Source: Saccharofermentans sp. (GTDB lineage Bacteria; Bacillota; Clostridia; Saccharofermentanales; Saccharofermentanaceae). Taken from it: 64,000 nt of DNA. The position numbers were made by a program, and so were the translations under genes. How positions within the stretch are numbered: position 1 is the stretch's first letter; each line of letters opens with the position of its first letter. Below are positions 6,681 through 54,791 of this stretch, in pieces. Under the pieces are notes generated by a model. It searched no databases. It was not told where the DNA came from and was given only the letters and a program-made list of their open reading frames with translations. The DNA is taken from the NCBI GenBank assembly GCA_024684815.1, contig JAIKWL010000018.1:29233-93232 (forward strand), written 5' to 3'.

Positions 6681-6693
6681 TTATGGATCCTCC

Positions 6694-7926: not shown

Positions 7927-7977
7927 TTATTCTGTTTCTCCGTAAATCTTATTTTCGAGATGCAATTAAGCATCAGA

Positions 7978-8724
7978 TCACATGTGCATTCCGCCGTCAA
8001 CGCTCAATACCTGTCCCGTGATGTAAGAAGCATCATCAGAGCAGAGGAAGTTGACTGCATTGGCGATATCTTCGGGCTGACCGTAACGCTTGAGAGGGAT
8101 CATTTCAAAGATCGCCTCCTTCTGCTTGTCTGAGAGGACAGCTGTCATGGGTGTCTCAACATATCCGGGAGCGATTGCATTGAATGTGATGTTCCTTGAA
8201 GCGAACTCTCTTGCGCATGACTTGGTAATACCGATGATTCCGGCCTTTGAAGCGGAATAGTTGACCTGGCCTGCCTGGCCCTCGATGCCGACGATAGAGG
8301 AAATGCTTACGACTCTTCCCTCTCTCTTCTTCATCATGATCGGTGCTGTATGCTTGATGAAGTTGAATGTACCCTTGAGGTTAACTGCGATAACTGAATC
8401 GAAATTCTCCTCTGTCATCTTGATGAGCAGTCCGTCTCTTGTGATACCTGCGTTATTTACGAGGATGTAGATCCCTCCGAAGTCCTCGTTGATCTGAGCT
8501 ACTGTCTCGCCGACTTTCTCAAAATCTGCAACGTTGCACTGATAAGCCTTGGCATCAACGCCCAGAGCTTTTACTTCTTCTTCAGCTTCCCTGCTGTTTT
8601 CCAAAGGGCAGGCATCAACGATAGCGATGTTATATCCGCTCTTTGCAAGCCTGATGGCGATAGCCTTGCCGATACCTCTTGAAGCGCCTGTAACTATAGC
8701 AGTCTTTCCTGTATTTTCTGACAT
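7978..8724 (-). CDS. fabG: 3-oxoacyl-ACP reductase FabG
   Basis: This 248-residue short-chain dehydrogenase reduces 3-ketoacyl-ACP with NADPH. It shows the cofactor loop TGASRGIG (12-19), NNAG (90-93) and the catalytic Ser142/143, Tyr156 and Lys160 in YSASK. The C-terminal ITGQVLSVDGGM motif is typical. An AGGAGG ribosome binding site precedes its ATG. It follows fabD by 14 nt. A second FabG paralogue lies at 15.0-15.8 kb in a different operon. Confidence 0.95.
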   Translation of the reverse strand: MSENTGKTAIVTGASRGIGKAIAIRLAKSGYNIAIVDACPLENSREAEEEVKALGVDAKAYQCNVADFEKVGETVAQINEDFGGIYILVNNAGITRDGLLIKMTEENFDSVIAVNLKGTFNFIKHTAPIMMKKREGRVVSISSIVGIEGQAGQVNYSASKAGIIGITKSCAREFASRNITFNAIAPGYVETPMTAVLSDKQKEAIFEMIPLKRYGQPEDIANAVNFLCSDDASYITGQVLSVDGGMHM

Positions 8725-8738
8725 TTTCCTACCTCCTG

Positions 8739-9659
8739 TTATTCAGCTGTTTTCTCTAATAGTTTTTCTATATCTTCAGGTGTTGATACACCGATAACCT
8801 TTATGGACGGAACCGTCTTTCTGACAAATCCTGCGATCGTCCTTCCGGGACCAACTTCGATTATCGTATCGACACCCATCTTCTCCAATTCATAGAGCGT
8901 CTGTTCCCACTTTACGGGATTGGACACCTGGGCTTCAAGAAGTTCTTTTATCTCTGCTTTGTCGCTTACGGGAGACGCTGTAACGTTCGGGATATAAGGG
9001 ATCTTAAGATCCTTCAGTTCGACATTTGCAAGTTCTTTTGCAAGTTCCTCGCCTGCTGTTTTCAGAAGAGGTGAATGGAAAGGTCCTGAAACATTTAATT
9101 CGACAACCTTCTTTGCGCCTGCTTCCTCGAGCCTCGGCATAGCCTCATGAACCGCTTCCTTTTTACCGGTGATAACGATCTGTCCGGGACAGTTGAAGTT
9201 AGCGAGCCAGCAGCCGTCGATCTTATCCGTAACACTTTCGATAGTCTCAGCATCAAGTCCCACAATGGCTGCCATCGTGCCTTCACCTGCAGGAACGGCA
9301 TTGGACATGAGTCTTCCTCTTAATCTTGTAAGTCTTACCGCATCTTCAAAGCTGAGCGCGCCTGCCACATAAAGACTGCAGTATTCACCGAGCGAAAGCC
9401 CTGCAGTAACGTCCGGCCTGATGCCTGCAAGGAGCAGAGCATCCGTAATAATGCAGCATGCCGTAACCAGAGCCGGCTGTGTATATTCCGTAATGTTGAT
9501 GTCTTCATTGGGCTCGAAAAGGAGCTTGTTCATATCCACTCCTGAAGCCTTTGCCGCTTCGGAGATCATGTCGGCATAGTGTTCGCCCGACTTGACGAAT
9601 CCTTCTGCCATTCCTACCTGCTGTACGCCCTGACCCGGATAACAAAATGCTATTTTCAT
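8739..9659 (-). CDS. fabD: malonyl-CoA:ACP transacylase FabD
   Basis: This 306-residue enzyme loads malonate from CoA onto ACP. It has PGQG near the N-terminus, the nucleophile Ser89 in GLSLGEY (most members have GHSLGE, here Leu replaces His), the arginine in RLRGRLM (Arg114) and the catalytic His195 in SGPFHSPLL. It overlaps the fabK stop codon by 1 nt, so translation is coupled. Confidence 0.94.
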   Translation of the reverse strand: MKIAFCYPGQGVQQVGMAEGFVKSGEHYADMISEAAKASGVDMNKLLFEPNEDINITEYTQPALVTACCIITDALLLAGIRPDVTAGLSLGEYCSLYVAGALSFEDAVRLTRLRGRLMSNAVPAGEGTMAAIVGLDAETIESVTDKIDGCWLANFNCPGQIVITGKKEAVHEAMPRLEEAGAKKVVELNVSGPFHSPLLKTAGEELAKELANVELKDLKIPYIPNVTASPVSDKAEIKELLEAQVSNPVKWEQTLYELEKMGVDTIIEVGPGRTIAGFVRKTVPSIKVIGVSTPEDIEKLLEKTAE

Positions 9660-10591
9660 TATGCTTCGAGTTTCCTTCCTAAAAGTTTATCTGCCTGCTC
9701 GAACATCGATTCTATGATGACCTTTGCAGGTCTTACTTCCTTGACTAGGCCTGCGATCTGGCCTGCCATGAATGTACCTTCCCTGATGTCGCCTTCCACT
9801 ACAGCCTTGCGGAGACTTCCAACTGTAAGTCCCTCAAGCTCTTCAAAGGTAACGCCGCTCTGCTCCATCTCAAGATACTTGTTGGAAAGGGCGTTTCTTA
9901 TCTGTCTTACAGGGTGGCCGTAAGATCTTCCGGTTACTCTTGTCGAGTTATCCTTTGCCTTAATGACCATATCCTTGTAGTTCTGGTGGACATTTACTTC
10001 ATCGCATGCGCAGAATACAGTTCCGCACTGGACGCCTTCGGCACCGAGCATGAAAGCAGCTGCAACGCCTCTGCCGTCTGCGATACCGCCTGCAGCAATA
10101 ACCGGAATGGATACAGCATCAACGACCTGGGGAACCAGTGTCATTGTCGTGGCTTCACCGATATGTCCGCCGGACTCCGTACCCTCTGCGATAACCGCGT
10201 CTGCACCGCACTGCTCCATTCTCTTTGCAAGAGCAACACCTGCTGTGACGGGAACGACGATGATGCCTGCCTCTTTCCACATATCCATGTACTTTTCCGG
10301 AGAGCCTGCGCCTGTCGTTACGACCTTAACCTTCTCTTCTGCGATTACCTTTGCGATCTCGGGAGCTCTGGGATTCATGAGCATGAGGTTTACGCCGAAC
10401 GGCTTGTCTGTTGCTTCCCTGCACTTCTTGATCTGGTCACGGAGCCAGTTCTCGTCAGCGCCGCCGACGCCGATGATGCCGAGACCGCCTGCCTCTGAAA
10501 CTGCTGCAGCGATGTGCCAGTCAGCAACCCAGGCCATACCGCCCTGGAAAATAGGATATTTAATTCCAATCAAATCTGTGATCCTGGTCAT
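9659..10591 (-). CDS. fabK: enoyl-ACP reductase II FabK (FMN-dependent)
   Basis: This 310-residue protein of the nitronate monooxygenase/FabK TIM-barrel family begins with PIFQGGMAWVAD and carries the FMN-site motifs EGTESGGHIGE and the VAAFMLGAEGVQCGT segment. FabK is the flavin-dependent enoyl-ACP reductase that replaces FabI in many Firmicutes. Its position between fabH and fabD matches the streptococcal and clostridial order and supports FabK rather than a nitronate monooxygenase. A strong AAGGAG site precedes its ATG. Confidence 0.93.
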   Translation of the reverse strand: MTRITDLIGIKYPIFQGGMAWVADWHIAAAVSEAGGLGIIGVGGADENWLRDQIKKCREATDKPFGVNLMLMNPRAPEIAKVIAEEKVKVVTTGAGSPEKYMDMWKEAGIIVVPVTAGVALAKRMEQCGADAVIAEGTESGGHIGEATTMTLVPQVVDAVSIPVIAAGGIADGRGVAAAFMLGAEGVQCGTVFCACDEVNVHQNYKDMVIKAKDNSTRVTGRSYGHPVRQIRNALSNKYLEMEQSGVTFEELEGLTVGSLRKAVVEGDIREGTFMAGQIAGLVKEVRPAKVIIESMFEQADKLLGRKLEA

Positions 10592-10622
10592 AATCTTATA
10601 TCTCCTTTTTCACTGATTAACT

Positions 10623-11600
10623 TTAGTAAACAATATAGTTAGCATCCCATGTGAGGCCTGCGCCAAAACTTGCGAGCACGAGCTTCATTCCGGGCTTGAG
10701 CCTTCCGTCCTGCTTCATTTCGGTAAGGAGCATCGGAATGCTCGCAGATGAAACATTGCCGTAATTCATGATGTTCATTGGGAACTTAGCTCTGTCGATC
10801 CCGAGCTTTTTAGCAGTAGCTTCGATGATGCGCGCATTTGCCTGGTGGAGGATAAAGTAATCCACGTCATTCTCGAGATCAAAGCTGTACTTCTCAGCAA
10901 GATCCTTGATTATCTGAGGAACTTCCGATACTGCAAACTTAAATACTTCTCTTCCCTGCATGTAGAAAGCAGTTGCTGTCTTGAAGCCTTCTTCCTCCCA
11001 CCTGTCGGGCTGTCTTGCAGCCTCGCATCTGAGGCAGTCGCTTCTATATCCTGAAGATCTCATGATGAACTCGTTACGCTTGATGTCCTCAGCCTTAAGA
11101 ACCGCAGCACCTGCACCGTCGCCAAAGAGGATACATGTTCCTCTGTCCTCATAGTTCGCAAAATTCGAATTGCACTCGGTACCGATTACAAGAGCAGTCT
11201 TGGAGTTGCCTGACTCGATAAAGCCCTGAACAGTATTGAATGCAACGATGAAACCGGGACATGCGCATACAACATCAAAGCATCCGCAATTCTCGGTTAC
11301 GCCCAGTTCTCTCTGAACAATACAGGACAGAGCAGGTATAACACTGTCTGATGTAGTAGAAGCCGTTACGATGAGGTCGATGTCCTTAGGATCTATCCCC
11401 GCATCCTCTACGGCTTTCTTTGCAGCCTCAACAGCCATCGTAGACGGCTTCTCTGTAATATGGTCTGCAATATGTCTTTCCTTGATACCGGTACGCTCTG
11501 TGATCCACTCGTCGCTCGTATCCAGAAATTTTGCAAAGTCGTCATTGGTTACGACCTTCTTCGGTATATACGATCCGAGACCTATGATTCTTCCTGTCAT
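10623..11600 (-). CDS. fabH: beta-ketoacyl-ACP synthase III FabH
   Basis: This 325-residue initiating condensing enzyme joins acetyl-CoA (or a branched starter) to malonyl-ACP. The catalytic residues are visible: Cys114 in CACPGF, His251 in HQANARI and Asn281 in NYGNVSSASIP. It is the first gene of the fab operon. The promoter and a FabT-like operator lie directly upstream. Unlike the streptococcal operon there is no fabT in front of it and no acpP behind it. Confidence 0.95.
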   Translation of the reverse strand: MTGRIIGLGSYIPKKVVTNDDFAKFLDTSDEWITERTGIKERHIADHITEKPSTMAVEAAKKAVEDAGIDPKDIDLIVTASTTSDSVIPALSCIVQRELGVTENCGCFDVVCACPGFIVAFNTVQGFIESGNSKTALVIGTECNSNFANYEDRGTCILFGDGAGAAVLKAEDIKRNEFIMRSSGYRSDCLRCEAARQPDRWEEEGFKTATAFYMQGREVFKFAVSEVPQIIKDLAEKYSFDLENDVDYFILHQANARIIEATAKKLGIDRAKFPMNIMNYGNVSSASIPMLLTEMKQDGRLKPGMKLVLASFGAGLTWDANYIVY

Positions 11601-12228: not shown

Positions 12229-13902
12229 TTATGGATTCGTGCAGTAGCCTTTAGCATCGAAATTGTAGTTCTTGCCGTCGATCTTCCAGGTGCCGTTCTT
12301 TGCATACCATCCGGCTGTATCCTGATAGTACCAGCCCTTAGAATTCTTCTTCCAACTTGCTCTTGCAGTATAAGTCCATGTGCCGTTTGTATTGAGCCAG
12401 TAACCGTTCCGGTATTCCTCTGCTGCCATATATCCATCAGGTTTGAAGAAATACCATTTGTTATCGATCTTAAGCCACCGATTCTTAGGATACCAACCGT
12501 TGGCATCCTGAAAATAAGTGCCCTTGGTATCAGACTTCCATGAAGCCCTGTACTTATATGTCCATGCGCCGCTCTTATCAAGATAGTATCCGTTAACATA
12601 TTCCTCTGATGCCATAGCGCCATTGGACTTGAAGTAGTAATCCACACCACCTATCTTCTGCCATCCGGTCCTCATCTTTCCGTTGACGTCAAAGTAATAC
12701 CATCCACCGGATATCTGCTGCCAGCCTGTTGCCATCTCACCCGTTGATCTCAAATAGAACCAGGCGCCGCCTTCTTTAATCCAACCGGTCTGAACAAACC
12801 CGTTGGCATCAGAGTAATACCAGTTGCTGCCGACCTTGAACCAGCCTGTTGCAATGGTTGCATCATCTTTCAAGTATATCCAGTTATTGCTTATTTTGTT
12901 CCAGCCGTATGCAGTAATAAGCGTTACTGAACGGTCGATTATAAAACCATTGTCGCTGCTGGAAGAAAAATCTTGTCCATAATGAATAGCTGAATCAGGC
13001 AAACCGGTTAATTTTCTAGGATATACACCGGTCGTAAATGCTTCCAGCAAATACTGGTTATCCCCAATAAATAGATATTTAAGGGAGTTGTTGAAACACC
13101 TCAGTTGTTTCAATGCGGAATTCTTTCTGAGATCAAGACCTGAGAGCTGGTTGTTGTAGCATAATAACTCTCTCAGCACAGTATTCCGGCTCAGATCAAG
13201 ACTTTTAAGCTGATTCTTCTCACACGATAAAAAAGTCAGAGCGGTATTCCTGCTTAGATCAAGTTCCTGAAGTTTGTTATCATTACAATTCAAATACGTT
13301 AAACCGGTATTTTTACTCACATCAAGGCTGGTCAGCTGGTTGTAATGGCAGTCAATATGTGTCAGAACCGTATTTCTTCTCAGATCGAGGCTTGACACTT
13401 TCAGATCCGCGCAATCCAATTCTTTCAAATATATATTCCTGCTCACATCAAGACTGGTAATCAGGTTATATGAACAAACCAGTTCCGTCAGTGCTGTGTT
13501 CATTCTTACATCGAGGCTTGTCAGCTTATTGGAGTGGCATCTGAGCTCTTTCAGTTCGGTATTCTTACTCAAATCAAGGCTTGTGATCTTATTGTTGAAA
13601 CAATAGAGGTATTCAAGGGAAGTAAAATATTCAATACCTTTCATATCTGTAATGGAACAGAATACAACATAAATAGATTTGACTTTGCTGATCTCCGAAT
13701 CACTTAAGAAACCGTTGCCGTCTTTATCACATTCTTTAGATACATAACTTCTGAAATTCTCATCCGGGAAATTAGTCTCATTGATCTCAATTCCCGAAGC
13801 GGCATTGACCGTAACAGTTGCCTCGGGAAGACTAAAGAACACAAATATAGCTAATGCCGCAGCAAGAACAGATACAAGGATCTTAAGACTTTTTGCTTCC
13901 AT
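12229..13902 (-). CDS. secreted leucine-rich-repeat protein with cell-wall-binding repeats
   Basis: This 557-residue exported protein starts at ATG 13902 (GGAG 6 nt before it; the frame is open to TTG 13914). A signal segment of about 35 residues is followed by a short domain ending in an EF-hand-like loop (DKDGNGFLSDSEI, about 59-71). Next come about nine LRR units of 21-23 residues with the pattern LxxLxCxxNxLxSLDLSxNT, then about seven wall-binding repeats (TGWxxxGxxWYYxxxxG). The end module (GYWLNTNGTWTY...DAKGYCTNP) also occurs, diverged, in three of the proteins at 58-64 kb. It is likely a non-covalently anchored surface protein for adhesion or binding. A -10 TATAAT lies at 13920-13925. 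Confidence 0.88.
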   Translation of the reverse strand: MEAKSLKILVSVLAAALAIFVFFSLPEATVTVNAASGIEINETNFPDENFRSYVSKECDKDGNGFLSDSEISKVKSIYVVFCSITDMKGIEYFTSLEYLYCFNNKITSLDLSKNTELKELRCHSNKLTSLDVRMNTALTELVCSYNLITSLDVSRNIYLKELDCADLKVSSLDLRRNTVLTHIDCHYNQLTSLDVSKNTGLTYLNCNDNKLQELDLSRNTALTFLSCEKNQLKSLDLSRNTVLRELLCYNNQLSGLDLRKNSALKQLRCFNNSLKYLFIGDNQYLLEAFTTGVYPRKLTGLPDSAIHYGQDFSSSSDNGFIIDRSVTLITAYGWNKISNNWIYLKDDATIATGWFKVGSNWYYSDANGFVQTGWIKEGGAWFYLRSTGEMATGWQQISGGWYYFDVNGKMRTGWQKIGGVDYYFKSNGAMASEEYVNGYYLDKSGAWTYKYRASWKSDTKGTYFQDANGWYPKNRWLKIDNKWYFFKPDGYMAAEEYRNGYWLNTNGTWTYTARASWKKNSKGWYYQDTAGWYAKNGTWKIDGKNYNFDAKGYCTNP

Positions 13903-14049
13903 CAACCTCTCCAACTTTCATTATAAAATATAGAATTACCTGTTTGCAGATTATCGCATCTTTTTATCTTGTTGTGAACAAAACTTCTGCAACACAAAAG
14001 GTGTACCCGGTAATACGAAGTAATCCCATATGTCGCTGAAGCATAAATG

Positions 14050-14104: not shown

Positions 14105-14265
14105 TTACGGATTCGTGCAGTAGCCTTTAGCATCGAAATTGTAGTTCTTGCCGTCGATCTTCCAGGTGCCCTTCTTTGCATACCATCCGGCCGTATCCTG
14201 ATTGTACCAGCCCTTGGAATTCTTCTTCCACGAAGATCTCGGTTTGTATGTCCATGCACCAAAAA
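14105..14265 (-). pseudogene. C-terminal fragment of a cell-wall-binding repeat gene
   Basis: The last about 50 codons (AWTYKPRSSWKKNSKGWY through DAKGYCTNP) are nearly identical, also in DNA, to the end of the LRR protein gene at 12229-12390. The homology stops near 14265. Further upstream the same frame runs through the operon terminator at 14272-14299 into the end of the flavodoxin gene, so the 68-codon frame ending here is not a real gene. The rest of the parent gene is missing; recombination or insertion of the adjacent operon probably removed it. Confidence 0.75.
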
Positions 14266-14271
14266 TTAATA

Positions 14272-14299
14272 CAAAAGCCGCAGGCCGCGGCTTTTTTTG
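14272..14299 (-). terminator. intrinsic terminator of the fused-ketosynthase operon
   Basis: On the minus strand AAAGCCGC and GCGGCTTT form a GC-rich stem with a 5-nt loop, followed by TTTTG. The hairpin begins just after the stop codon of the flavodoxin-type reductase. On the plus strand it is followed by a seven-T run, so it could also work in the other direction. Confidence 0.75.
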
Positions 14300-14300
14300 A

Positions 14301-15035
14301 CTAATTTTCAAATCTGCTCGCAGCCCATCCGCCTTCGTTTAAATGGGAACTTGTAAGGTTAGCAAATCCCTCGGGTGAAAGGAGCGGGATCTGGAGTTTC
14401 CTTATGGTCTCAGGATCAAGCTTAAAATCGTTTGCACAATATTCAGCGCCGGCCTTCTTAAGATCATCGAGATATACCCTGATCTGTCTTTTTGCTTTGC
14501 CGGTCATGAATACTTCACCCATGGGACAGAGAATGCATGTATATCTGTCCCTGCCGCCGCAGATCAAGTCATACTGTGCGAGAAGTGCAGGATATACCGG
14601 TTCTAATTCGACATATCCGCAGGAACTTATGACTACGAATTTCTTGTTGAAGATAGAAGGATCCCTCATCTTGTTGAATGTCTGCCTGTCATCAGACCTC
14701 GTGCCCATGTAGGGCTCTGCAAGAGAAAGGCATCTGTCGGTGACTGCCTTAAGCTGAGAAGGCATGCCGTAGAAATATAGCGGGAAACTCTCGATGATGA
14801 TGTCGGCTTCCTTTACAGCATTTAAGATCTCCGGCATATCGTCTTTGATCGCGCATGTTCCGTCAGGAGATGCCCAGCAGGCAAAGCAGCCTCTGCAGGG
14901 CTTTATATCTTTGGCATAGATATCGATCTGCTTTACTTCCGTGCCTTCGGGAAAGCCTGATACAAAAGCTTTTGTTACGTTTAGAGTATTGCTTTTTTCG
15001 AGCTTCGGACTGCCGTTAAGAATAAGTACTTTCAT
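14301..15035 (-). CDS. flavodoxin-fold NAD(P)H-dependent FMN reductase-like protein
   Basis: This 244-residue protein begins with the flavin phosphate-binding strand and loop MKVLILNGSPKLEKSNT and has the Cys-containing segment KPCRGCFACW followed by GTCAIKDDM, typical of flavodoxin-like reductases/iron-sulfur flavoproteins (PF03358/PF02525 type). FPLYFYGMPSQLKAVTDR is the conserved flavin-contact region. It probably reduces a quinone, enone or a carrier-bound intermediate using FMN. Its ATG overlaps the stop of the upstream FabG by 1 nt, and it is the last gene of the six-gene operon. The C-terminal 70 residues are not recognised. Confidence 0.85.
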   Translation of the reverse strand: MKVLILNGSPKLEKSNTLNVTKAFVSGFPEGTEVKQIDIYAKDIKPCRGCFACWASPDGTCAIKDDMPEILNAVKEADIIIESFPLYFYGMPSQLKAVTDRCLSLAEPYMGTRSDDRQTFNKMRDPSIFNKKFVVISSCGYVELEPVYPALLAQYDLICGGRDRYTCILCPMGEVFMTGKAKRQIRVYLDDLKKAGAEYCANDFKLDPETIRKLQIPLLSPEGFANLTSSHLNEGGWAASRFEN

Positions 15036-15769
15036 TAAAGACTTAATCCTCCGTCAAGAACGATTACCTGCCCGGTCATGTATGAGAAACCGTCAGATAA
15101 AAGGCTTGCGACACAGTTTGCGACTTCTTCAGCAGAACCGAAGCGCTTCATGGGAACAGCGTCCAGATACTTCTCGGCAAGGTCACCCGGAATGGACTTG
15201 ATCATGTCGGTACCGACAAAGCCCGGAGCTACAGCATTTACCTGTATGCCGTAAGGTGCAAGTTCCTTTGCCATAGTCTGAGTCATGGAATTGACCGCGC
15301 CCTTCGTCGCGCTGTAAACAGTCTGACCGGGAACTGCAAGGATGGAACTTACGGATGAGACGTTGATGATCTTGCCGCTCTTCTGCGAGCACATCTTAAG
15401 ACTTGCCGCCTGTGCGCAGTTGATATAACCCTTGATATTGATGGCAAGGCTCTTTTCGAGAGAATCAGGTCTTATCATGAGAAGATAGGCATCATCAACA
15501 ACGCCGGCATTGTTGATCAGGACGTCGATGGTCTCAAAACTCTTTTTGATATCCTTGAACATCGCTTTGACCTGAGCTATATCGGAAGTGTCGGCCTTGA
15601 AGATCTCGCAGCGCACACCTGATGCCGTGATCTGCTCCTGTGTCTCCTTAGCCGCCTCATCGTTGCTTGCGTAGTTAAGCGCTATGTCATAGCCTTCGTT
15701 TGCAAGCTTCAAAGAGATGGCCTTGCCTATTCCTCTTGAACCGCCTGTAACAACTGCTGTCTTGCCCAT
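15035..15769 (-). CDS. FabG-type 3-oxoacyl-ACP reductase (second copy)
   Basis: This 244-residue short-chain dehydrogenase has TGGSRGIG (8-15), NNAG (86-89), Ser138/139, Tyr152 and Lys156 (YSATK) and a C-terminal MTGQVIVLDGG. It differs throughout from the operonic fabG at 8.0-8.7 kb and sits between the fused ketosynthase and the flavodoxin reductase. It probably reduces the 3-keto product of the fused ketosynthase on the dedicated ACP. A GGAAGG site precedes the ATG, and its stop codon overlaps the next gene by 1 nt. Confidence 0.92.
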   Translation of the reverse strand: MGKTAVVTGGSRGIGKAISLKLANEGYDIALNYASNDEAAKETQEQITASGVRCEIFKADTSDIAQVKAMFKDIKKSFETIDVLINNAGVVDDAYLLMIRPDSLEKSLAINIKGYINCAQAASLKMCSQKSGKIINVSSVSSILAVPGQTVYSATKGAVNSMTQTMAKELAPYGIQVNAVAPGFVGTDMIKSIPGDLAEKYLDAVPMKRFGSAEEVANCVASLLSDGFSYMTGQVIVLDGGLSL

Positions 15770-15790
15770 AATTACCTTCCCTGATCTAAG

Positions 15791-18055
15791 TTATGCTTTT
15801 GTCAGAAGTATCGCAGAGAAAAGTGCACTCGTGCCGAATGATACAGCAATACCGTTCTCACATCTTCCCTCATGGATATCCTGTGCAAGTTTTGCGAACT
15901 GCAGCGATGAAGAAGCTGCTCTGGCTTCACCGAATTCTTTCTTTATGAGTTTGACCTCGATATCATCTCCGAAGATCTTTTTGTAGATATTCATCTCAAA
16001 GTCATCAGTCTCTTTGATACCGTTGCCGAAGCCGTAAATACAGGATATATCTTCAGGCTTCATTCCGGCTTCTTCCAGAACATTATTGAGCACCTTTGTA
16101 AGCGCTGCTTCAGACAATCTTGAATTGTCAGTTCTGTCGCCTGATGTATCCCTTGCCGAAGAGAATCCGGCAATCTTCGCATACCGCTTTGCACCGCGCT
16201 CTGCAGCACTTGAATCCTTCTCGATCACACAGGTGACTGAACCTTCACCGAGGACAGCCCTGCCTTCGCCTGTCAGTCCTGAATCTCGGTATATCTCCTC
16301 ATCAATATCGGTGCATTCGTCAGTTCCCGATGCGAGCATCATGCTCTCATAACCGAACAGGATGGCGCCTGCGGCAGCACATACGCTCTGAAGGCCCGAC
16401 TGGAAACCGTTAGCTATGGTTACGTTATAGCCCTTGATACCGGTTGCAATGCTAAGGTATCCTCCCGCAGCGTTATAGACTGTATTCGGGAAAGCAAAAG
16501 CAGAACCCTTGTCGATTCCGTCTCTGATGATGCCCTTCTGAAAATTGGCGATCTCGGTCATAGGGCCGTCATTCGTTCCTATGCAGATACCGATTATGTT
16601 CTCGTTTTCTTCAGAAACGGTAATTCCAGCATCCTCTAATGCCCTGACACCGCTCAGGAGCTGGAGCTGCGAGAGCCTGTCGAGCTTTCTCAAAAATGCG
16701 GACTTAATACCGTAAGACTTGAAAACATCTGATTCGAGTTTTGTAGTATATGTGTTTGTATTCTCATCGTATTCACCGTTTACGATACCGATACCGGTGA
16801 CATAGAGATCCTGTTTGGGACAAAGAAGATTAAGTTTGTTTGGATCTCTTGCAAATACGATGCTTGCGTTGTTGCCTCCGAACGCGAACGAATTCGACAT
16901 CGCATAATTGACGTCTCTTTCACGCGGTTTGTTGGCAATAAAATCAATGTCTCCGGATTTTTCTTCCAGGATCTTAAGATCCTCGTCCGAATAACCCGTA
17001 GTGGGAGGAAGCTTGCCTTCAGCAAGTGCTTTGACTGTCAGCACTGCCTCAATGGCACCTGCCGCACCTAAACAGTGACCGGTCATGGATTTTGTGGAAC
17101 TTACGGACACATGATCGTTGCCTTCGAACATCGTCTTCAAAGACAGGAATTCTGATTCATCGTTCTTTGCCGTACCGGTGCCGTGCGCATTGACATAATC
17201 GATGTCCGAGAAATCAAGACCCGAGTTCTTGATCGCGCGTCTGATAACACTCATCTGGCCTTCGCCGTCAGGTCTCGGTGCAGTGATGTGATATGCATCC
17301 GAACTTACGCCGGAACCTAATACATCACAGTATATTTTCGCGCCGCGCTTTACAGCGTGCTCGTAGCTCTCGACTACAAGGACGCCCGCGCCTTCGCCTA
17401 ACGTAATACCGTCACTGTGGTTGAACGGGGAGCAGTCAGAGGGCGCAAGTGCCCTCAAAGCATGGAATCCCGAATAAGCAAGTGACGAGAAAGAGTCGCA
17501 TCCGCCCGCAAGGAAGATCTCACCCCTTCCGCCCCTGATCATGTCGATCGCGAGCGCAAGGCTGAGCGTTCCTGCTGCACATGCATTAACGATATTTGCC
17601 GTTATTCCTCCGGCATTATAGAAATCAGCGACATTGCCTGCAATAACAGTAGCAGGCATTGACTTTAGATCTTCGAGGTTGCCCTCTCTTCCGCTGCACT
17701 TTTCTTTATAATATTTTTCGACACAGGCAGCTCCCGCGATACAGCTTCCGAGAATAACACCGATATTGGCTGCTTCCTCGGAATCCATATCGATCCCGGC
17801 ATCAGCCAGTGCTTCTCCGGCTGCTTTTATTCCGAGCGCAGTGGTCCTGTCATATCTTCCGTCTGCAAGCTGCTCATTGGTAAGACCGACTTCAGCGCCC
17901 TTATGGGAATAGCAATCTGAAGTATCAAAACTCTCAACATCTTTGATACCTGACTTGCCGCTAAGCGCTGCTTCAAAACATTCTTCAGTATTGTTTCCGA
18001 TTGCGCTCACGATGCCAAGGCCCGTGATAACGCAACGTCTTTCATTCATCAGCAT
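15791..18055 (-). CDS. fused ketosynthase and ketosynthase-like (chain-length-factor-like) protein
   Basis: This 754-residue protein contains two ketosynthase folds in tandem. The first (about 1-408) is a complete FabF-like enzyme with Cys159 in NACAAG, His291 in NAHGTGTAKND and His327 in STKSMTGHCLGAAG. The second (about 415-754) is a shorter KS fold in which all three positions differ: Phe551 for Cys (GFQSG), Phe676 for the first His (YGFGNG) and Glu710 for the second (KKEFGE). This is the pattern of KS-alpha plus chain length factor in type II polyketide and aryl-polyene systems, where two proteins form a heterodimer; here they are joined. The start overlaps nothing: ATG 18055 follows the ACP stop by 2 nt with GAGGG before it. 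Confidence 0.9.
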   Translation of the reverse strand: MLMNERRCVITGLGIVSAIGNNTEECFEAALSGKSGIKDVESFDTSDCYSHKGAEVGLTNEQLADGRYDRTTALGIKAAGEALADAGIDMDSEEAANIGVILGSCIAGAACVEKYYKEKCSGREGNLEDLKSMPATVIAGNVADFYNAGGITANIVNACAAGTLSLALAIDMIRGGRGEIFLAGGCDSFSSLAYSGFHALRALAPSDCSPFNHSDGITLGEGAGVLVVESYEHAVKRGAKIYCDVLGSGVSSDAYHITAPRPDGEGQMSVIRRAIKNSGLDFSDIDYVNAHGTGTAKNDESEFLSLKTMFEGNDHVSVSSTKSMTGHCLGAAGAIEAVLTVKALAEGKLPPTTGYSDEDLKILEEKSGDIDFIANKPRERDVNYAMSNSFAFGGNNASIVFARDPNKLNLLCPKQDLYVTGIGIVNGEYDENTNTYTTKLESDVFKSYGIKSAFLRKLDRLSQLQLLSGVRALEDAGITVSEENENIIGICIGTNDGPMTEIANFQKGIIRDGIDKGSAFAFPNTVYNAAGGYLSIATGIKGYNVTIANGFQSGLQSVCAAAGAILFGYESMMLASGTDECTDIDEEIYRDSGLTGEGRAVLGEGSVTCVIEKDSSAAERGAKRYAKIAGFSSARDTSGDRTDNSRLSEAALTKVLNNVLEEAGMKPEDISCIYGFGNGIKETDDFEMNIYKKIFGDDIEVKLIKKEFGEARAASSSLQFAKLAQDIHEGRCENGIAVSFGTSALFSAILLTKA

Positions 18056-18057
18056 TA

Positions 18058-18315
18058 TCAGCCCTCTATATGTGATTCAACAAATGCTGTGAGTGTCTCG
18101 ATGGAACGGAAATCCTCTTTTGTGGCGCCTGCGCCGGAAATGTCAACTCCGAAGAGATTCTCGATACCTACGATGATCTCAATGGAATCGATGGAATCAA
18201 GTCCGATATCCTCACCGAAAAGCTCTGAATCGTATTCGAGCTCATCTTCCGGGATCCTGAGTCTTTCTACAAGCATTCCCTTGATCTTCTCGGCAATCTC
18301 ATTATTCATTTCCAA
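18058..18315 (-). CDS. acyl carrier protein
   Basis: This 85-residue acidic helical protein has the phosphopantetheine attachment motif GLDSIDSIE, with Ser41 as the attachment site. Length is normal for an ACP. AGGAGG precedes the ATG. It sits 2 nt before the fused ketosynthase gene, so it is most likely the dedicated carrier of that system. No other ACP is present in the window, and the fab operon at 6-11 kb has none. No phosphopantetheinyl transferase gene is present here. Confidence 0.94.
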   Translation of the reverse strand: MEMNNEIAEKIKGMLVERLRIPEDELEYDSELFGEDIGLDSIDSIEIIVGIENLFGVDISGAGATKEDFRSIETLTAFVESHIEG

Positions 18316-18360
18316 AATTCCTCCTAATTTATAATAAAAGGTAAATTCACACGAATAACC

Positions 18361-18993
18361 TTACACTATGTTGCTCTGTTTTTCCAATGAAACGGAATAA
18401 AAGTGCAAAATCACGTTGAACTTCTTGAGCTGCTTTAAGTACATCCTGCATTTCATCCCCCATGAGGAAACATAGAGGATATCGCCTTCTATGTCAGTTA
18501 CCGTGACCCAGTGATATCCGCACATAGTCTGATGTCCGTTGGGCAGTTCGACCGCAACATTATTGAACGGAGCCGTTATGAGCATGACCACCGGATCGCC
18601 GCCCTCCAGATATTTGGGGATCTTCTCCCACCATCTGAACCTGAAGGGTCTGACCTTAACAGATAAGCCTTCCTTAACGCCGAGCTTTTTTATGCCCCTT
18701 CGAAATCTCCCGGCGCTGACACCGAAGCTTCCCAGGAACTCTTTGCCGAAGAGTTTTCTTGGATCTCTGTTCTTTCCGACGGTGATGGGTCTTATATAGT
18801 CCTTGGCTTCGAAAAATCTCTTGAAGTATTCTTCCCTGGTCATGCCCTTCTCACCCTTAAGGCGCATTACGGCATCCAGACCGGCTATTATTCCGCATCC
18901 GCTGTTAAGGAGCATCGGATCAGGAAGCCACATCTGGCTTCCTCCGAATGATTCCTCACCGTTCTTATCAACTATCTTAGGTGGCAAACTCAT
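18361..18993 (-). CDS. papain-like (peptidase C39-like) cysteine protein of unknown role
   Basis: This 210-residue protein has no signal peptide. A Cys in LLNSGCGIIAGLDA (Cys33) near the N-terminus is followed about 130 residues later by GYHWVTVTDI (His161) and a strand ending YVSSWG. This spacing fits a papain-like fold of the C39 or BtrH type, with the Cys-His pair intact. I do not recognise a characterised member. Its start overlaps the asparaginase stop by 4 nt (ATGA) and it precedes the ACP by 45 nt, so it is an operon member. In butirosin synthesis BtrH, a papain-like protein, moves an acyl chain off an ACP; a similar acyl-transfer or release role here is inference. An amidase or peptidase is the alternative. 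Confidence 0.6.
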   Translation of the reverse strand: MSLPPKIVDKNGEESFGGSQMWLPDPMLLNSGCGIIAGLDAVMRLKGEKGMTREEYFKRFFEAKDYIRPITVGKNRDPRKLFGKEFLGSFGVSAGRFRRGIKKLGVKEGLSVKVRPFRFRWWEKIPKYLEGGDPVVMLITAPFNNVAVELPNGHQTMCGYHWVTVTDIEGDILYVSSWGMKCRMYLKQLKKFNVILHFYSVSLEKQSNIV

Positions 18994-19829
18994 CTTAAAA
19001 GCACCTCCGCCCAGGCTCCCTCAACCGGCATTCCCGTTAATTCAACTGCCCCTGCTTCCCTTAGCCTTCTGCGGCTTTCGTAGACACCGACACCGGAAGG
19101 TACGGGAGCCATATAGCATTTTATTCCTTCCGAAGTCCACTTTCTGACCAGTGGCTCAAGTTCTGAAGATGCCGTTCCTGAATGATTGCAGCAGATAAGC
19201 ACCCTGTCAAAACCTCTATCGGGGATCACCGCACCCGGCACCGAAGGGATGATCAATATGTTATGGAGCACGCCGGTAAAGAAATCCTTATGATCTTTTG
19301 CTTCGGGCATCTGCCCGTCTTTATATTCGTCATATAATCCGCTGATATCGGGTGATACGATAAGATGCGCTTTGTAAAGCTGCCGATCCCCTTTTCTGTT
19401 CCTGAACACTACACCGGACCTGCCTTCTTCAAGAGATCTGACCGCAAAAGCCAGGTTCCCTTCTGCTTCTTCGGGATCAACATCAGGAGATCTCATCGAA
19501 CCCGTGATAACAAACGGGATCTTAAGAACCGGCAGCACCCTTGCGGCAAGCTGCGCAAAAAAAGCACAAGTGTCAGTCCCGTGAGTTATAAGTATTCCGT
19601 CGTATTCCGAAGCATTTGCCTCGTCAATGATCCTTCTTAATGATTCACGGTAGATAAAAGGTGTCGCATCTTCGGAAGAATAAGTCTTGAAATCAGGGAA
19701 AACGAATTCGTGCGAAGGATATTTTTCGAGCAGAAAGTCACGCGCAAATGAAGTCTTTCCGAGCTTTATTGTTCCGGAGTCGTTTGCTGACGAGATCGTC
19801 CCTCCGAGCATCGCGCCTAATATCCTCAT
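18990..19829 (-). CDS. asparaginase-family protein (type I-like)
   Basis: This 279-residue protein has the N-terminal catalytic-Thr motif LGGTISS (Thr11) and the second motif THGTDTCAFFA near residue 87, then ITGSMRSPD. It lacks a signal peptide, so it would be cytoplasmic. ATG 19829 is chosen because it follows GGAAAGG; the frame is open 39 codons further up with no site. The length is somewhat short compared with about 330 residues for bacterial L-asparaginases. It is the first gene of the operon leading to the fused ketosynthase. It may simply hydrolyse asparagine, or may act on an amide product of the pathway (inference). Confidence 0.85.
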   Translation of the reverse strand: MRILGAMLGGTISSANDSGTIKLGKTSFARDFLLEKYPSHEFVFPDFKTYSSEDATPFIYRESLRRIIDEANASEYDGILITHGTDTCAFFAQLAARVLPVLKIPFVITGSMRSPDVDPEEAEGNLAFAVRSLEEGRSGVVFRNRKGDRQLYKAHLIVSPDISGLYDEYKDGQMPEAKDHKDFFTGVLHNILIIPSVPGAVIPDRGFDRVLICCNHSGTASSELEPLVRKWTSEGIKCYMAPVPSGVGVYESRRRLREAGAVELTGMPVEGAWAEVLLR

Positions 19830-19870: not shown

Positions 19871-19896
19871 GATAATTATAATTCACGGGGGTCTGT

Positions 19897-20661
19897 ATGA
19901 GAATAGCAAGCTGGAACGTAAACGGAATAAGGGCAGTTGCAACCAAGGGGTTTGCCGAAAGCCTTGAGAAGATAGGCGCTGATGTTATTGGAATTCAGGA
20001 GATAAAAGCCTTAAAGGAACAGTTGGGACCCGAGATCACTGACATTCCCGGATATAAAAGCTGGTTCTATTCCGCAGAGCGTAAGGGTTATTCCGGTACA
20101 GCCCTTTATTCGAAGATCGAACCTCTGAAAGTCGACTTCGGCTTCGGAGTTGAGGAATTCGACCACGAGGGAAGGGTCATCAAGGCAGACTTCGGTGACT
20201 TTGTGCTGTTCAACATTTATTTCCCTAACGGCGGAAGAGGCGATGACTTCGTTAAGTTCAAGCTCAGGTTCTACGACTGCTTCCTCGATCAGGTCGATGA
20301 ACTTAAGGCAAAGGGCAAAGAGGTCATCTGCTGCGGCGACGTAAACACAGCTCATAAAGAGATCGACCTGTCCAATCCAAAAGCGAACTCAAAGATCTCG
20401 GGATTTTTACCCGAGGAAAGAGCATATATGGATAAGTTTATCGAAAGAGGACTTACGGACACTTTCAGGATGCTCCATCCTGAAGATAAGGAATGCTATA
20501 CCTGGTGGTCTTATAAGACTGCCGCAAGAGAGCGTAATGTGGGCTGGAGGATCGATTATTTCTTTACGACATCAGGACTCAATTCCCGCGTAAAGGAATC
20601 AAACATGATGACAGACATTATGGGTTCAGATCACTGCCCTATTTATGTTGATCTGGATTAA
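19897..20661 (+). CDS. xthA: exodeoxyribonuclease III
   Basis: This 254-residue AP endonuclease/exonuclease III cuts DNA at abasic sites in base excision repair. It has the ASWNVNGIRA start, the metal-binding Glu35 in IQEIKA, GDVNTAHKEIDL, WRIDYFF and the C-terminal SDHCPIYVDL with the catalytic His. Length is normal. It is transcribed away from the asparaginase operon, and its last 23 nt overlap the end of the convergent EAL-domain gene. Confidence 0.96.
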   Translation: MRIASWNVNGIRAVATKGFAESLEKIGADVIGIQEIKALKEQLGPEITDIPGYKSWFYSAERKGYSGTALYSKIEPLKVDFGFGVEEFDHEGRVIKADFGDFVLFNIYFPNGGRGDDFVKFKLRFYDCFLDQVDELKAKGKEVICCGDVNTAHKEIDLSNPKANSKISGFLPEERAYMDKFIERGLTDTFRMLHPEDKECYTWWSYKTAARERNVGWRIDYFFTTSGLNSRVKESNMMTDIMGSDHCPIYVDLD

Positions 20662-23600
20662 ACTGGTCGTCGATCAGCATCTTTCCGTTGAGATTAAGGA
20701 ACAATGAGGACGTCGTAATATTCATATCCATCTTGCCAGAATACTTGGGATCTTCGAGAGTCGTTACAACGCTTCCTTCAATACGGCAGTTGGATACCCT
20801 GACTTTAACGGTCGAATCAACTCCTCTGTAGATGCCTGTCTGACCGCCTTCAATGTCGACTTTGACAGCCACATAATCAAGACAGATATTGGAAGGTGCT
20901 GCTGTTCCGGAACCCATAACGGTAATGTCATGAGCTCTTGCCTTTGCAGTAAGGGCAGCACTGTATATGCTTAATTGCAGATTATCACTCTTCTTGGAAC
21001 CGATATGGACTACGTCATTTCCGAAGAAATCCATGCTGACCGAGGAATGCTCGATCATGATATCGCACTTGCCGGTAAATGAACCGATTCCTATAGCCGA
21101 CAGAGCACCGCTCTTGATATCAAGCGCACAATTGCTTATCAGAGGCTCGATATCGCCGTATAAAGAACCGACACCCACACACTGCTGTCCCATAAGGCTA
21201 AGTCTGTATGCGCCTCTTCTTATACTCAAATGTCCTCCGAGGCCGCTTCCGATGGCAACGCCTTTGGTCGCACTTATGGTTATCTCAATAAGCCCGTCCT
21301 GATCGAAAACAATATCCCCGTGGTACGAATCCATATCGTTGCCTATACCGAATGAATCAACATCCGTAACGAATATGGAAAGCCTTCCTTCGCCTTCGAA
21401 CATCAGATTTGATGTCGAAGCAAGTCTGATTCCGCCGTCAATCAATTTGTTCTCGCCGCTGAGCGCAATAACAACATCACAATCTTTTCCGATATCAATG
21501 GCTGCAGGGAATTTCTCGCCGGTAAATGAACAGTTCTCGAGAAGGATCCGGCCCTTATAACCGTCCTCTATGTCAAGTCTGATCCTTGCCTCATCGCCCG
21601 GAACTCCGGAAATAACAATGTCTCTGTGAGTTACCTGTCCTGAAGTAACGCGGATGGTGTTGATACCTTCTTTGGCAAGATGCGAAAGAGATATCCTTGC
21701 TTCCCTTCCTGCGATATATTCTTTTTTTGCACCGTCCATATTCCACTTTTTGCTGTGGATCTGGATCTCCGATTTGATCATGGGATCGATATCCTTCAGG
21801 ATCACCTCGGACGGTCTTGCCGTGTAATAACCCTGGATAAGGTCTATTCCGAGCCTTATAACTGTGGCGATCTCTTCGGCAGTCTCTATTCCTTCTGCAA
21901 GCGCCATAATGTTGTTATCGTGTGAGAACTCGATAATGTCCTTAACAAAGTGCTGCTTTTGAGGTGAATCCTGAATGTTGGCCAGAAGCGCTCTGTCGAT
22001 CTTTACATAATTCGGCATATACCTTAGTAGGTTGCTGACATTTGAATATCCGGTTCCGTAGTCATCTACCGCTGTCTCGACTCCAAGCTTCTGGAATTCC
22101 TTCTTCATCTCAAGGAGCACATCGTCATCGATCTCCGACTGTTCAGTAAATTCGACGACGAGCTTCTCAGATGATATTTTCGTCATATCATAGATCTTCT
22201 TGAAATCCTTTATGTTCAGAAGCTGACCAGGGATGGAATTGACAAATATCTTGGTCCCGGGCTTAAAGGCTTCATCATTTTCTTTAATGAATTTCAGGAC
22301 ATTGCTGAAAGTCGCATACTCGACGTCGTAAAGCCTTCCGAACAGTTCGGCATACTTTATGACAAGCAGCGGCTGGATTATAGGAGATGTCTCAGTCCTC
22401 ATTAATGCCTCATAGGCAAAGATCTCACCTGTGTGAGCATCGACGATCGGCTGGAAGTGATAATTGATCCTGTTATCATCCAATATGTTATTAACGATCC
22501 TGGCTTCCTTGATCTGATCGTCGTTTAATCCGTCAGCATCAAGCTTTTGCAGGCTTGTCTTCTGTCCGTTCTTTCTCGACAATGCAACATTTACGAGATT
22601 CTCATAATCTTCACGGTCCCTGGGCTCACCTTCAGCCATCCCGTAGTAAACTTCGATCTTTCTTATGTTGCCTGATAGCGTGTTATTGTATTCTTCGAGC
22701 CTTCTGTTGATCTCTTTTATCCTCTTGTCCAGAACCTGAAGAGTATCGGCATTCCTGATGACCTCTAATGCTACCATCTCACCGTTGCCCATGCAGTAAA
22801 CTCGGCCTTTGGTGAACACATCACACATCAGACGGCCGACCGCGATTATCGCATTATCTCCTGCGATCCTTCCGTCCTCATTATTGATCCTTGAAAGATT
22901 CTTTATGTCGACCGCAAGAGCTCCCACCTTTTCGCCTCCGACAAGAGGATCCATCCTGACGATATCTTCAGCCTGTCTTAAGAAACCGTTATAGTTATAG
23001 ATACCTGTGAGAGGATCTCTGATAAGACTTGCTTCAAGCTGTTTATTGATGCTCAGAAGTTCATCATATCTTCTGAAGTTCTCCAGTCCTCTCATTATGC
23101 TGTGAAGCCAGAAACGGTAGGATCTCTTATAAGATCCGGGTTTGGTAAATGAGAGAACGGCATATCCGAAGGTCGAATCCTCGAAATGCAGCGGAGTAAA
23201 GAAAAACGCCTCCGGCTTATCCCTTTCCGCTTCAAGTCTTGGTATAAGTATGTTCCTGTCAAAGAAAACATCGGAACTCATTCTGTCACAGTTAAGGTGT
23301 TCGGGACGGCATGCAATAACATGCATCATCTTTTTGGAGAAGTATCTGTCCGTCTCAGTCAGTTTTTCAACAGAAAGCCTTGAATCCTCTATGCTTCCGG
23401 ACATCTTCTTGGCCATCTGCTGCCAGTTGTCATTAAGACAGAGACTGAAGCTCTCAAATTCCCTTATCTGGAAAACATAAGAGAATACTGTCCTGCAAAG
23501 TCCGTCAAAATCGTTCTGGATGACAAGATCCTCATCGAGATGGTTAAACGATGAAAAGACACTGTTGTGTGATGTATCGGTCGGCCATACCTTGCGGTAT

Positions 23601-24490
23601 TTCATGTCGATCTCGTTAATGCTCTTGGTACAGCCGCAAGAACTCCCCTGGAAGAAATCGCCAAGGACCTCAAACGGGCTTATATCCTCGCCATTCATCA
23701 ATTCGATAAGATTTTCGATGGTATGTGCTCCCATAGCCTTGGCGGGAAGCTTTATGGAAGTGATCGGCTCAGGTGAGTATCTGCCTTCCTCCATCGAATC
23801 GTAACCAATGACCGCAATATCCTGCGGAATCCTGACTCCGCCTTCGGAAAGTGCCGTGGCAAGACCTATCGCCATGCAGTCATTTGCGCATGCTATCGCC
23901 TGGGGAAGTCTTCCGCCCTTCTTTATAAGACGGTCCCCGAGATTCTCTCCGCTCGTATACCAGAAATCACCGTAGAACACTCTTTCCTTGCCGACAGGAA
24001 GATTATGCTCGGACATGGCATCGATAAAACCCTGAAGTCTCTGGCGTGAATATTTATGCCAGGCCTTGCCTGTGAGATATGCGATATCTGTAAACCCGTG
24101 ATCCTCTATAAGATGCGTGACGAGCTTTTTTGCATTCTCATAATGGTTCGGGAAAATGGACGGAAAATACCTGCTGTCCTTATCAACAAATATTACCGGG
24201 CACTTGCAGCGGTCATGTATGATCTCCTCTATGCTGTCCGCTAGTCCGGGCGACTGAAGTGTATCTCCCATAACGGCGATCGCATCAAACTTTTCATAAG
24301 GAACAAGCGAAAAGACTGATGTCTCGCCTATCTCTCTTACCCTGCTGTTTTGATATTTAAGATAGCTTGCGAAAACAACGACATCCATGTCGTTTTCAAA
24401 AGCCCTGCCGGTAAAACCCTCAACAAACTGAGACTGATAATATTCATCAGCCTGTCCCATAAGCAAAGCTATTCTTTTACGTCCAGCCAT
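20639..24490 (-). CDS. LacI-type sensor / GGDEF-EAL protein with C-terminal beta-repeat domain
   Basis: This 1283-residue protein appears cytoplasmic: no signal peptide or membrane segment is seen. Residues about 8-285 form a periplasmic-binding-protein-like sensor domain of LacI/GalR type without a DNA-binding helix-turn-helix, ending with SSCGC. A linker of about 180 residues follows. A GGDEF fold (about 490-645) has a degenerate active loop (GNGEM), so it should not make c-di-GMP. The EAL domain (about 665-910) keeps YEALMR (Glu about 694), VEFTEQ, DDYGTG, KIDR, AEGIE and QGYY, so phosphodiesterase activity is plausible. Residues about 950-1283 are Gly/Ser-rich beta repeats resembling a right-handed beta-helix or carbohydrate-binding fold. 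It may link a sugar signal to c-di-GMP breakdown (inference). ATG 24490 has AAGGGG before it. Confidence 0.9.
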   Translation of the reverse strand: MAGRKRIALLMGQADEYYQSQFVEGFTGRAFENDMDVVVFASYLKYQNSRVREIGETSVFSLVPYEKFDAIAVMGDTLQSPGLADSIEEIIHDRCKCPVIFVDKDSRYFPSIFPNHYENAKKLVTHLIEDHGFTDIAYLTGKAWHKYSRQRLQGFIDAMSEHNLPVGKERVFYGDFWYTSGENLGDRLIKKGGRLPQAIACANDCMAIGLATALSEGGVRIPQDIAVIGYDSMEEGRYSPEPITSIKLPAKAMGAHTIENLIELMNGEDISPFEVLGDFFQGSSCGCTKSINEIDMKYRKVWPTDTSHNSVFSSFNHLDEDLVIQNDFDGLCRTVFSYVFQIREFESFSLCLNDNWQQMAKKMSGSIEDSRLSVEKLTETDRYFSKKMMHVIACRPEHLNCDRMSSDVFFDRNILIPRLEAERDKPEAFFFTPLHFEDSTFGYAVLSFTKPGSYKRSYRFWLHSIMRGLENFRRYDELLSINKQLEASLIRDPLTGIYNYNGFLRQAEDIVRMDPLVGGEKVGALAVDIKNLSRINNEDGRIAGDNAIIAVGRLMCDVFTKGRVYCMGNGEMVALEVIRNADTLQVLDKRIKEINRRLEEYNNTLSGNIRKIEVYYGMAEGEPRDREDYENLVNVALSRKNGQKTSLQKLDADGLNDDQIKEARIVNNILDDNRINYHFQPIVDAHTGEIFAYEALMRTETSPIIQPLLVIKYAELFGRLYDVEYATFSNVLKFIKENDEAFKPGTKIFVNSIPGQLLNIKDFKKIYDMTKISSEKLVVEFTEQSEIDDDVLLEMKKEFQKLGVETAVDDYGTGYSNVSNLLRYMPNYVKIDRALLANIQDSPQKQHFVKDIIEFSHDNNIMALAEGIETAEEIATVIRLGIDLIQGYYTARPSEVILKDIDPMIKSEIQIHSKKWNMDGAKKEYIAGREARISLSHLAKEGINTIRVTSGQVTHRDIVISGVPGDEARIRLDIEDGYKGRILLENCSFTGEKFPAAIDIGKDCDVVIALSGENKLIDGGIRLASTSNLMFEGEGRLSIFVTDVDSFGIGNDMDSYHGDIVFDQDGLIEITISATKGVAIGSGLGGHLSIRRGAYRLSLMGQQCVGVGSLYGDIEPLISNCALDIKSGALSAIGIGSFTGKCDIMIEHSSVSMDFFGNDVVHIGSKKSDNLQLSIYSAALTAKARAHDITVMGSGTAAPSNICLDYVAVKVDIEGGQTGIYRGVDSTVKVRVSNCRIEGSVVTTLEDPKYSGKMDMNITTSSLFLNLNGKMLIDDQFNPDQHK

Positions 24491-24548
24491 CAAAAGCCCC
24501 TTACCGTTAACCGATGCTCAATACATCTATAGCGGTCTATATATCTGT

Positions 24549-52928: not shown

Positions 52929-52949
52929 TTATAAGGGAGGATCTCAAGA

Positions 52950-54623: not shown

Positions 54624-54647
54624 ACATCCGGCTGATCATTGTTCATT

Positions 54648-54677
54648 AAAAGGGGCTTTACTGCCCCTTTTATTATT
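54648..54677 (+). terminator. terminator after array paralogue 2
   Basis: AAAAGGGGC and GCCCCTTTT form a strong stem with a 6-nt loop, followed by ATTATTT. Confidence 0.8.
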
Positions 54678-54759: not shown

Positions 54760-54791
54760 CAAATTTGTTGATCATTATTGGGGAGGATTGT

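Follow-up and report, generated by a model that had tools for sequence, protein, structure and literature searches.

A six-gene operon of Saccharofermentans with a fused ketosynthase–chain length factor protein, probably a compact acyl synthase

A 64,000-nucleotide stretch of the Saccharofermentans sp. contig JAIKWL010000018.1 (assembly GCA_024684815.1, positions 29,233 to 93,232; the whole stretch is referred to below as the window) contains an operon of six genes centred on a ketosynthase (KS) fused to a chain length factor (CLF). The operon probably encodes a dedicated, compact acyl synthase resembling type II polyketide synthases (PKSs) and fatty-acid synthases (FASs), in which a cysteine protein would replace PlsC as the releasing acyltransferase. 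Among the highly reducing type II PKS/FAS-like systems it is read here as a variant of the Bacillota in which KS and CLF are joined, and its most likely product is a reduced acyl chain assembled on an acyl carrier protein (ACP) of its own. The six genes are the following.

18990..19829, minus strand: ASN, asparaginase-like protein of 279 aa, the first gene (Pfam Asparaginase N-domain; T11 and T85-D86 invariant in 24 rows)
18361..18993, minus strand: CYS, C39/papain-like cysteine protein of 210 aa with Q20, C33 and H161 (Peptidase_C39_2, fold and residues)
18058..18309, minus strand: ACP of 83 aa, with Ser39 in GLDSIDS (Pfam PP-binding; alignment of 16 rows)
15791..18055, minus strand: KS–CLF didomain of 754 aa, KS from 1 to ~410 and CLF from ~411 to 754 (Pfam, alignment, tree and model)
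15035..15769, minus strand: FabG-type beta-ketoacyl-ACP reductase of 244 aa (Pfam SDR and profile models)
14301..15035, minus strand: FLAV, flavodoxin-fold FMN reductase of 244 aa with a four-Cys motif (Pfam; Cys in 75/75 homologues)

All six open reading frames (ORFs) were found to be intact in an ORF check of the window, and they lie head to tail over positions 14301–19829 in the transcription order ASN, CYS, ACP, double ketosynthase, FabG-type reductase and FLAV. The initial annotation had already described these genes, their sizes and most of their junctions, which are overlaps of 4 nt (ASN/CYS) and 1 nt (FabG/FLAV) and gaps of 2 nt (ACP to KS–CLF) and 21 nt (KS–CLF to FabG). Its 45-nt gap between CYS and ACP requires correction, as the ATG at 18309, common to the 16 aligned genus rows, is the more likely start of the ACP (83 aa) and would make the gap 51 nt. 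Pfam assigned Asparaginase N-domain, PP-binding, ketoacyl-synthase, SDR and FMN-reductase/flavodoxin domains to the operon proteins, and in the 754-aa protein the N and C domains of ketoacyl-synthase each occur in two stretches.

The prediction that the 754-aa protein is a KS–CLF didomain, consisting of a catalytic KS half and a non-catalytic CLF half, is well supported. The KS half carries C159, H291, K322 and H327 in 20/20 diverse rows, and the CLF half is without the Cys/His/His residues in all 20: F, V, A, N, I or S occupy its Cys column, F/Y and E/D its two His columns, and its Lys column is mostly Lys. The nucleophile column of the CLF half is occupied by F551, a variable position, and an invariant Gln stands one residue further; replacement of the nucleophile by this Gln was rejected because the alignment places F551 there instead. 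In a 41-row tree, 15 KS halves (support 96/87), eight FabF proteins (97/95) and 15 CLF halves (100/99) fall on separate branches, and a recent KS duplication inside one gene was discarded on account of the separation of the KS and CLF halves. The AlphaFold2 (AF2) model of the whole protein (pLDDT 83.2, pTM 0.89) gives the CLF half a full KS-like fold. Its best PDB fold match (Foldseek rank 1) is the PfaC KS–CLF didomain 6riw (TM-score 0.81 to the query, 904 columns, 18% identity), the sole match spanning both halves among the 50 matches listed, and the best PDB sequence match of the fused-protein profile, 9s5h, holds two different KS-type chains. The fused KS–CLF protein postulated in the initial annotation is therefore borne out by residues, tree and fold.

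Within the genus, the fused protein found a match in 16/35 genomes, the window's own included, at 17 places. All six genes occur in the same order in 16/16 fetched genus (Saccharofermentans-like) loci, in which ASN and partly FLAV are cut by the locus edges, and the arrangement is thus more than chance. Conservation of the neighbours had been set beforehand as a check on the initial annotation; it holds in the genus, and beyond it the core is kept in 80 loci with a different gene before the ACP. Among the proteins compared, conservation is highest in the ACP (80–96% identity to the window protein over 16 rows, with Ser39 invariant) and lowest in ASN (45–73%, 24 rows) and CYS (46–82%, 25 rows). 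The earlier claim of an ACP belonging to the operon is supported. A gene of the phosphopantetheinyl transferase (PPTase) family is present elsewhere in the genome in 6/6 genus genomes searched.

The wider distribution was examined by a CLF-half scan of 84,980 species genomes, which confirmed 268 relatives; the best 80 were kept as loci (numbered with L) and searched with profiles of the operon proteins and recurrent neighbours. These 80 loci overlap in part with the genus genomes (e.g. L058 = L002 and L040 = L004), include two from one assembly (L042 and L046) and five that are nearly identical (L090, L094, L096, L098 and L108), and carry contig labels that may be wrong where they come from metagenome-assembled genomes (L091 is labelled Bacteroides). 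The fused KS–CLF was kept in all 80 of these best 80 of 268 loci, the ACP and FabG in 79 each and FLAV in 74. KS and CLF form one chain in the window and in 78/80 loci (L081 is contig-cut), and split ORFs in L041 and L102. Named relatives with 78–85% CLF-half identity bear the labels Saccharofermentans, Ruminococcaceae, Oscillospiraceae, Clostridiales or Clostridia, and where a title gives their source it is rumen, gut or faeces. Ruminococcaceae bacterium AB4001 has a KS–CLF 86% identical to that of the window and a window-type operon. In separate searches that scored at most two candidates per genome, the fused protein was matched at E <= 1e-120 in 2/398 phylum genomes (its own and G252), and among the matches listed for 391 class genomes both halves were spanned only in four own-genus genomes, G640 and G679. 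Because of that scoring, the spread in Oscillospirales is taken from the best 80 of 268 relatives.

Two mutually exclusive architectures were found among these best 80 of 268. The window type, ASN-CYS-ACP-KSCLF-FabG-FLAV, occurs in 33 loci, in exact order in 32/33, the 33rd having a split KS–CLF. The other 47 loci follow the scheme PlsC-ACP-KSCLF-FabG-DH-(PPTase)-FLAV, where DH is a dehydratase, with the exact order in 36/47 and with 43 PlsC, 44 DH, 41 FLAV, 27 PPTase and 10 patatin genes; nine of the 11 inexact loci run off contig ends, L102 has a split KS–CLF, and L088, a 15.6-kb locus, is without FLAV. In Pfam, examples of these neighbours matched Acyltransferase, FabA-like, ACPS and Patatin. 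One PlsC-type locus (L060) lies on a contig that bears the label Ruminococcus bromii YE282. In Lachnospira eligens ATCC 27750, the cluster lies on a 627-kb plasmid record (KS–CLF 46.5% identity) in the order alpha/beta hydrolase, ACP, KS–CLF, FabG, FabZ, malonyltransferase (FabD), AccD, a 302-aa ORF, a flavodoxin-family protein and PlsX; the unlisted 302-aa ORF is read here as AccA. Throughout the loci compared, the core is thus constant and the gene before the ACP variable. As a separate observation, a Transposase DDE match (PF01609; L108, 6819–7364) directly follows a PlsC-type operon and patatin gene, and the fused proteins of L090, L094, L096 and L098 are nearly identical to that of L108 under other organism labels, which may point to transfer or to a single species recorded under different names.

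The lipid-related genes of the second architecture bear on an alternative that is unlikely but deserves serious attention, namely that the operon is a second FAS for an unusual membrane or envelope lipid, with a special fatty or hydroxy acid entering phospholipids or other lipids, CYS as an accessory and exit via housekeeping PlsX/PlsC. Such a role is consistent with the PlsC-type gene in 43/47 loci, whose product resembles acyl-ACP-phospholipid acyltransferases below the cut-off, with patatin in 10/47 and with PlsX after the L. eligens cluster. However, the window-lineage operon is without a lipid gene, and CYS is kept in 33/33 like loci with its Q, C and H invariant.

The function of CYS as the releasing acyltransferase in PlsC's place is likely, and it is favoured because CYS occupies the slot that holds PlsC or an alpha/beta hydrolase in relatives. 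The initial annotation had left release or tailoring to either the cysteine protein or the asparaginase-like one; this slot points to CYS, with the release step itself predicted from gene position. A quick tree of the 80 fused proteins, with L. eligens as its root, groups the CYS loci in a single clade (SH-aLRT 97) adjoined by the PlsC loci L066 and then L060; two changes, the minimum possible, account for the three release types. The absence of a dehydratase was assigned to all CYS loci by rule, so that its one-change count restates the CYS clade. The pattern would fit a single event that removed PlsC and the dehydratase and brought in ASN and CYS, and ASN accompanies CYS throughout the loci compared.

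At the residue level, Q20, C33, H161, S176, S177 and W178 are invariant in 34/34 CYS sequences. The third active-site residue of papain is Asn/Asp, 16 after the His; CtaG has H128/D144 according to PDB titles, and CYS has Ser (S176, S177) in that place in 34/34. The window CYS alone gave no Pfam match, and 12/25 relatives matched Peptidase_C39_2 at E <= 1 (best 1.2e-4). The AF2 model (pLDDT 87.8) found fold matches to a 'P210 CD lyase', a C39-like peptidase, staphopains, the PCAT1 protease domain, AziU2-U3 and CtaG. No credible sequence relative of CYS was found among solved structures in the PDB (4 matches, best E 0.18). A viral fold library returned mostly phage peptidases and lysozyme/lysin proteins (11 matches at E <= 0.001), which were set aside as uninformative about CYS function. 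Strong matches to CYS were obtained in 4/291 class genomes, all of its own genus, together with one weak match elsewhere. The weak match of L126 (Clostridia; E 1.5e-7) lies in a 577-aa ORF.

These fold matches suggest a further alternative, which is improbable: CYS could be a peptidase, active or dead, whose task is to mature or guard a pathway protein, with ASN as an amide hydrolase and neither acting on the ACP-bound chain. C39 and papain-like peptidases account for several of the best fold matches, the weak Pfam match is to Peptidase_C39_2, and the third active-site residue is Ser. Against this, the slot of CYS is filled by an acyltransferase or an alpha/beta hydrolase in other lineages, and CYS is nearly confined to this operon.

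In the acyl synthase proposed here, substrates, product, release chemistry and the roles of ASN and FLAV are predicted from the gene set. Housekeeping FabD would load malonyl units onto the ACP encoded in the operon, condensation would fall to the N-terminal KS half, and the C-terminal CLF half would form the other pocket wall and set the chain length. FabG would reduce the beta-keto groups, and any dehydration would depend on FabZ, borrowed from the fab operon nearby. The four-Cys flavodoxin-type FLAV is a likely chain reductase, the finished chain would leave the ACP via C33 of CYS to an acceptor (amine, alcohol or water), and ASN may have a part in preparing this acceptor or in trimming the product. 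The fab operon lies at 6246–11600 and, by family assignment, comprises FabZ, FabF, FabG, FabD, a FabK-like NMO-family protein and FabH, with FabD ~5 kb from the six-gene operon. No FabZ-type dehydratase was found in the window operon or the 33 like loci, where L054 has a low-scoring FabZ-like ORF within 6 kb. The presence of this gene in 44/47 loci of the other architecture, and of FabD and AccD as well in L. eligens, fits the earlier proposal that the window operon, which has none of them, borrows FabD and perhaps FabZ. The lack of a dedicated dehydratase in the CYS clade suggests that the window-type product keeps hydroxyls or relies on FabZ.

A compact four-Cys motif in a flavodoxin fold is a feature of iron-sulfur flavoproteins (Isf). 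FLAV has the motif C-x2-C-x2-C-x7-C in the window, its four Cys columns being present in 75/75 homologues, and is predicted from this pattern to be iron-sulfur-flavoprotein-like; its reduction of the chain is likely. An ene-reductase role is possible from its best PDB sequence match, 7d38 (E 2e-8), a code that occurs once in the text of PMC7862272, part of which reports a flavone ene-reductase. ASN matches L-asparaginases across its N-terminal part (best E 9e-17), with both catalytic Thr motifs, T11 and T85-D86, invariant. The asparaginase catalytic triad is Thr-Asp-Lys, and ASN shows no invariant Lys in the stretch expected for the catalytic Lys, the exact column being approximate.

Several points weigh against the proposed synthase and the role given to CYS. 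The Ser in place of Asn/Asp may mean that CYS is a peptidase or inactive; its fold scores are modest (TM-score about 0.5), its four matches at E <= 0.001 being to two staphopains, a C39-like peptidase and a lyase, with CtaG at E >= 6e-3. A swapped neighbour gene is not proof of equal function, and as PlsC and the dehydratase are both missing in one clade, the product may differ altogether. The tree that places the CYS clade was built quickly and its outgroup branch is long, the ene-reductase idea for FLAV rests on a weak match (7d38), and the position of ApeO among the fused KS halves leaves a single fusion origin unsupported.

Judged from its genes, the operon works like a highly reducing type II PKS, but the separate KS and CLF proteins and the dedicated dehydratase listed for that kind are absent from the window operon. 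The systems for ishigamide (Iga11-Iga12) and aryl polyenes (ApeO-ApeC) share with it a KS with a non-catalytic CLF, a dedicated ACP and a FabG-type ketoreductase, and share a FabZ-type dehydratase with its relatives. In contrast, KS and CLF are separate there and fused here, the window operon has no aromatic-starter genes or second KS, and it carries the cysteine and asparaginase-like proteins instead. In the 41-row tree, ApeO of E. coli falls weakly among the fused KS halves (92/33 for the nearest join), and the long branches of ApeC, ApeO and ApeR make these placements unsure; the aryl polyene region of E. coli CFT073 also holds a lysophospholipid-acyltransferase-family gene. Assignment to the aryl polyene family was rejected, as the CLF half has 344 aa versus 240 aa in E. 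coli ApeC and the operon has no second KS (ApeR).

The separation of KS and CLF, cited in the initial annotation as the known arrangement in type II systems, holds for those two and is not the sole arrangement. PfaC of polyunsaturated fatty acid (PUFA) synthases carries a KS–CLF didomain within a multidomain synthase, according to part of PMC9702510, and thus has both on one chain, as here. The window protein differs in holding only two KS-type domains beside a free ACP, on which ground a PUFA synthase was rejected. Distant stand-alone fused KS–CLF proteins near ACP, FabG and FabZ also occur in other Bacillota, on Priestia megaterium pBM500 (L132) and in L127-L129. The P. megaterium KS–CLF has 33% identity to that of the window and its KS half lies on a separate branch; in all four loci a GcvT-like gene precedes KS–CLF, and malonyltransferase and thioesterase-type genes are added (names from annotation for P. 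megaterium and as read here for L127-L129). Two flavodoxin-type ORFs with a similar Cys motif, judged by eye, are present in L127 and L128. CYS shares its fold with CtaG (closthioamide), AziU2-U3 (azinomycin) and C39 peptidases, at TM-scores of about 0.3–0.5 and about 8–16% identity and with Ser where CtaG has Asp; part of PMC6772006 describes CtaG as a peptidyl transferase that would shift an acyl group between carrier proteins.

The cispentacin proteins AmcF-AmcG, described in part of PMC10698177 as a KS that pairs with a CLF-like protein and has a dedicated ACP, resemble the operon in these components, with two proteins there and one here. It is nevertheless very improbable that the operon is a cispentacin- or coronafacic-acid-like system with one or few condensations and cyclisation and no long chain, for the AmcF and AmcB models match the KS half and ACP below the cut-off and are outscored by FabF, FabG and ACP models, the CLF half is modelled as a full KS-like fold whereas AmcG is described in the same part as without parts of the CLF fold, and the operon shows no AmcH-type ligase gene and no sign of ring formation.

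No report of a cluster with this make-up was found in the searches made of open-licence literature, in line with the initial annotation, which had recognised none. A fused minimal type II PKS-like system is present in rumen and gut anaerobes, including the R. bromii-labelled contig and human gut L. eligens, and its product is probably a lipid or small molecule for which those searches found no description. It is conceivable, and put forward tentatively, that these loci form a widespread class of acyl synthases among the Clostridia of gut and rumen, built from a stand-alone KS–CLF didomain, an ACP and ketoreductase of their own and an iron-sulfur-flavoprotein-like reductase. The releasing enzyme (PlsC, alpha/beta hydrolase or C39-like cysteine protein) would be swapped between lineages, with CYS as a new class of ACP-dependent acyltransferase, paired with ASN, that yields a different final product from the same core. 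CYS may be a new acyl-transfer enzyme, and the gene before the ACP, exchanged in nature, offers a ready comparison of chain-release chemistry. Judged by their records, L. eligens ATCC 27750 and Ruminococcaceae bacterium AB4001 appear to be cultured, which makes the system testable.

Two candidate signals flank the operon.

14273..14295, minus strand: terminator-like hairpin 3' of the last gene (position only)
19875..19903, minus strand: promoter-like hexamer pair 5' of the first gene (position only)

The hairpin (14295-14273) carries a T-rich tail and agrees in place with the single terminator described earlier, and the promoter-like pair (19903-19875) has 10/12 matches. A signal scan gave 7 promoters versus 8.1 in shuffles and 8 terminators versus 5.3, counts that do not stand out from the shuffles, so that support for both signals comes solely from where they lie.

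Elsewhere in the window, positions 20639–24493 encode a protein of 1284 aa that combines a LacI-type periplasmic-binding domain with GGDEF and EAL domains, and a gene for 1277–1302 aa is found at the same site in many genus loci. Seven tandem ORFs of 550–576 aa lie at 51276–63638 on the plus strand; the three that were scanned contain choline-binding repeats and BspA-type leucine-rich repeats (LRRs), and the group may be an expanded surface-protein array. A choline-binding/LRR protein is also encoded at 12229–13914, and a short ORF beside the operon end (14105–14311) shares its C-terminal end and is apparently a remnant copy of it.

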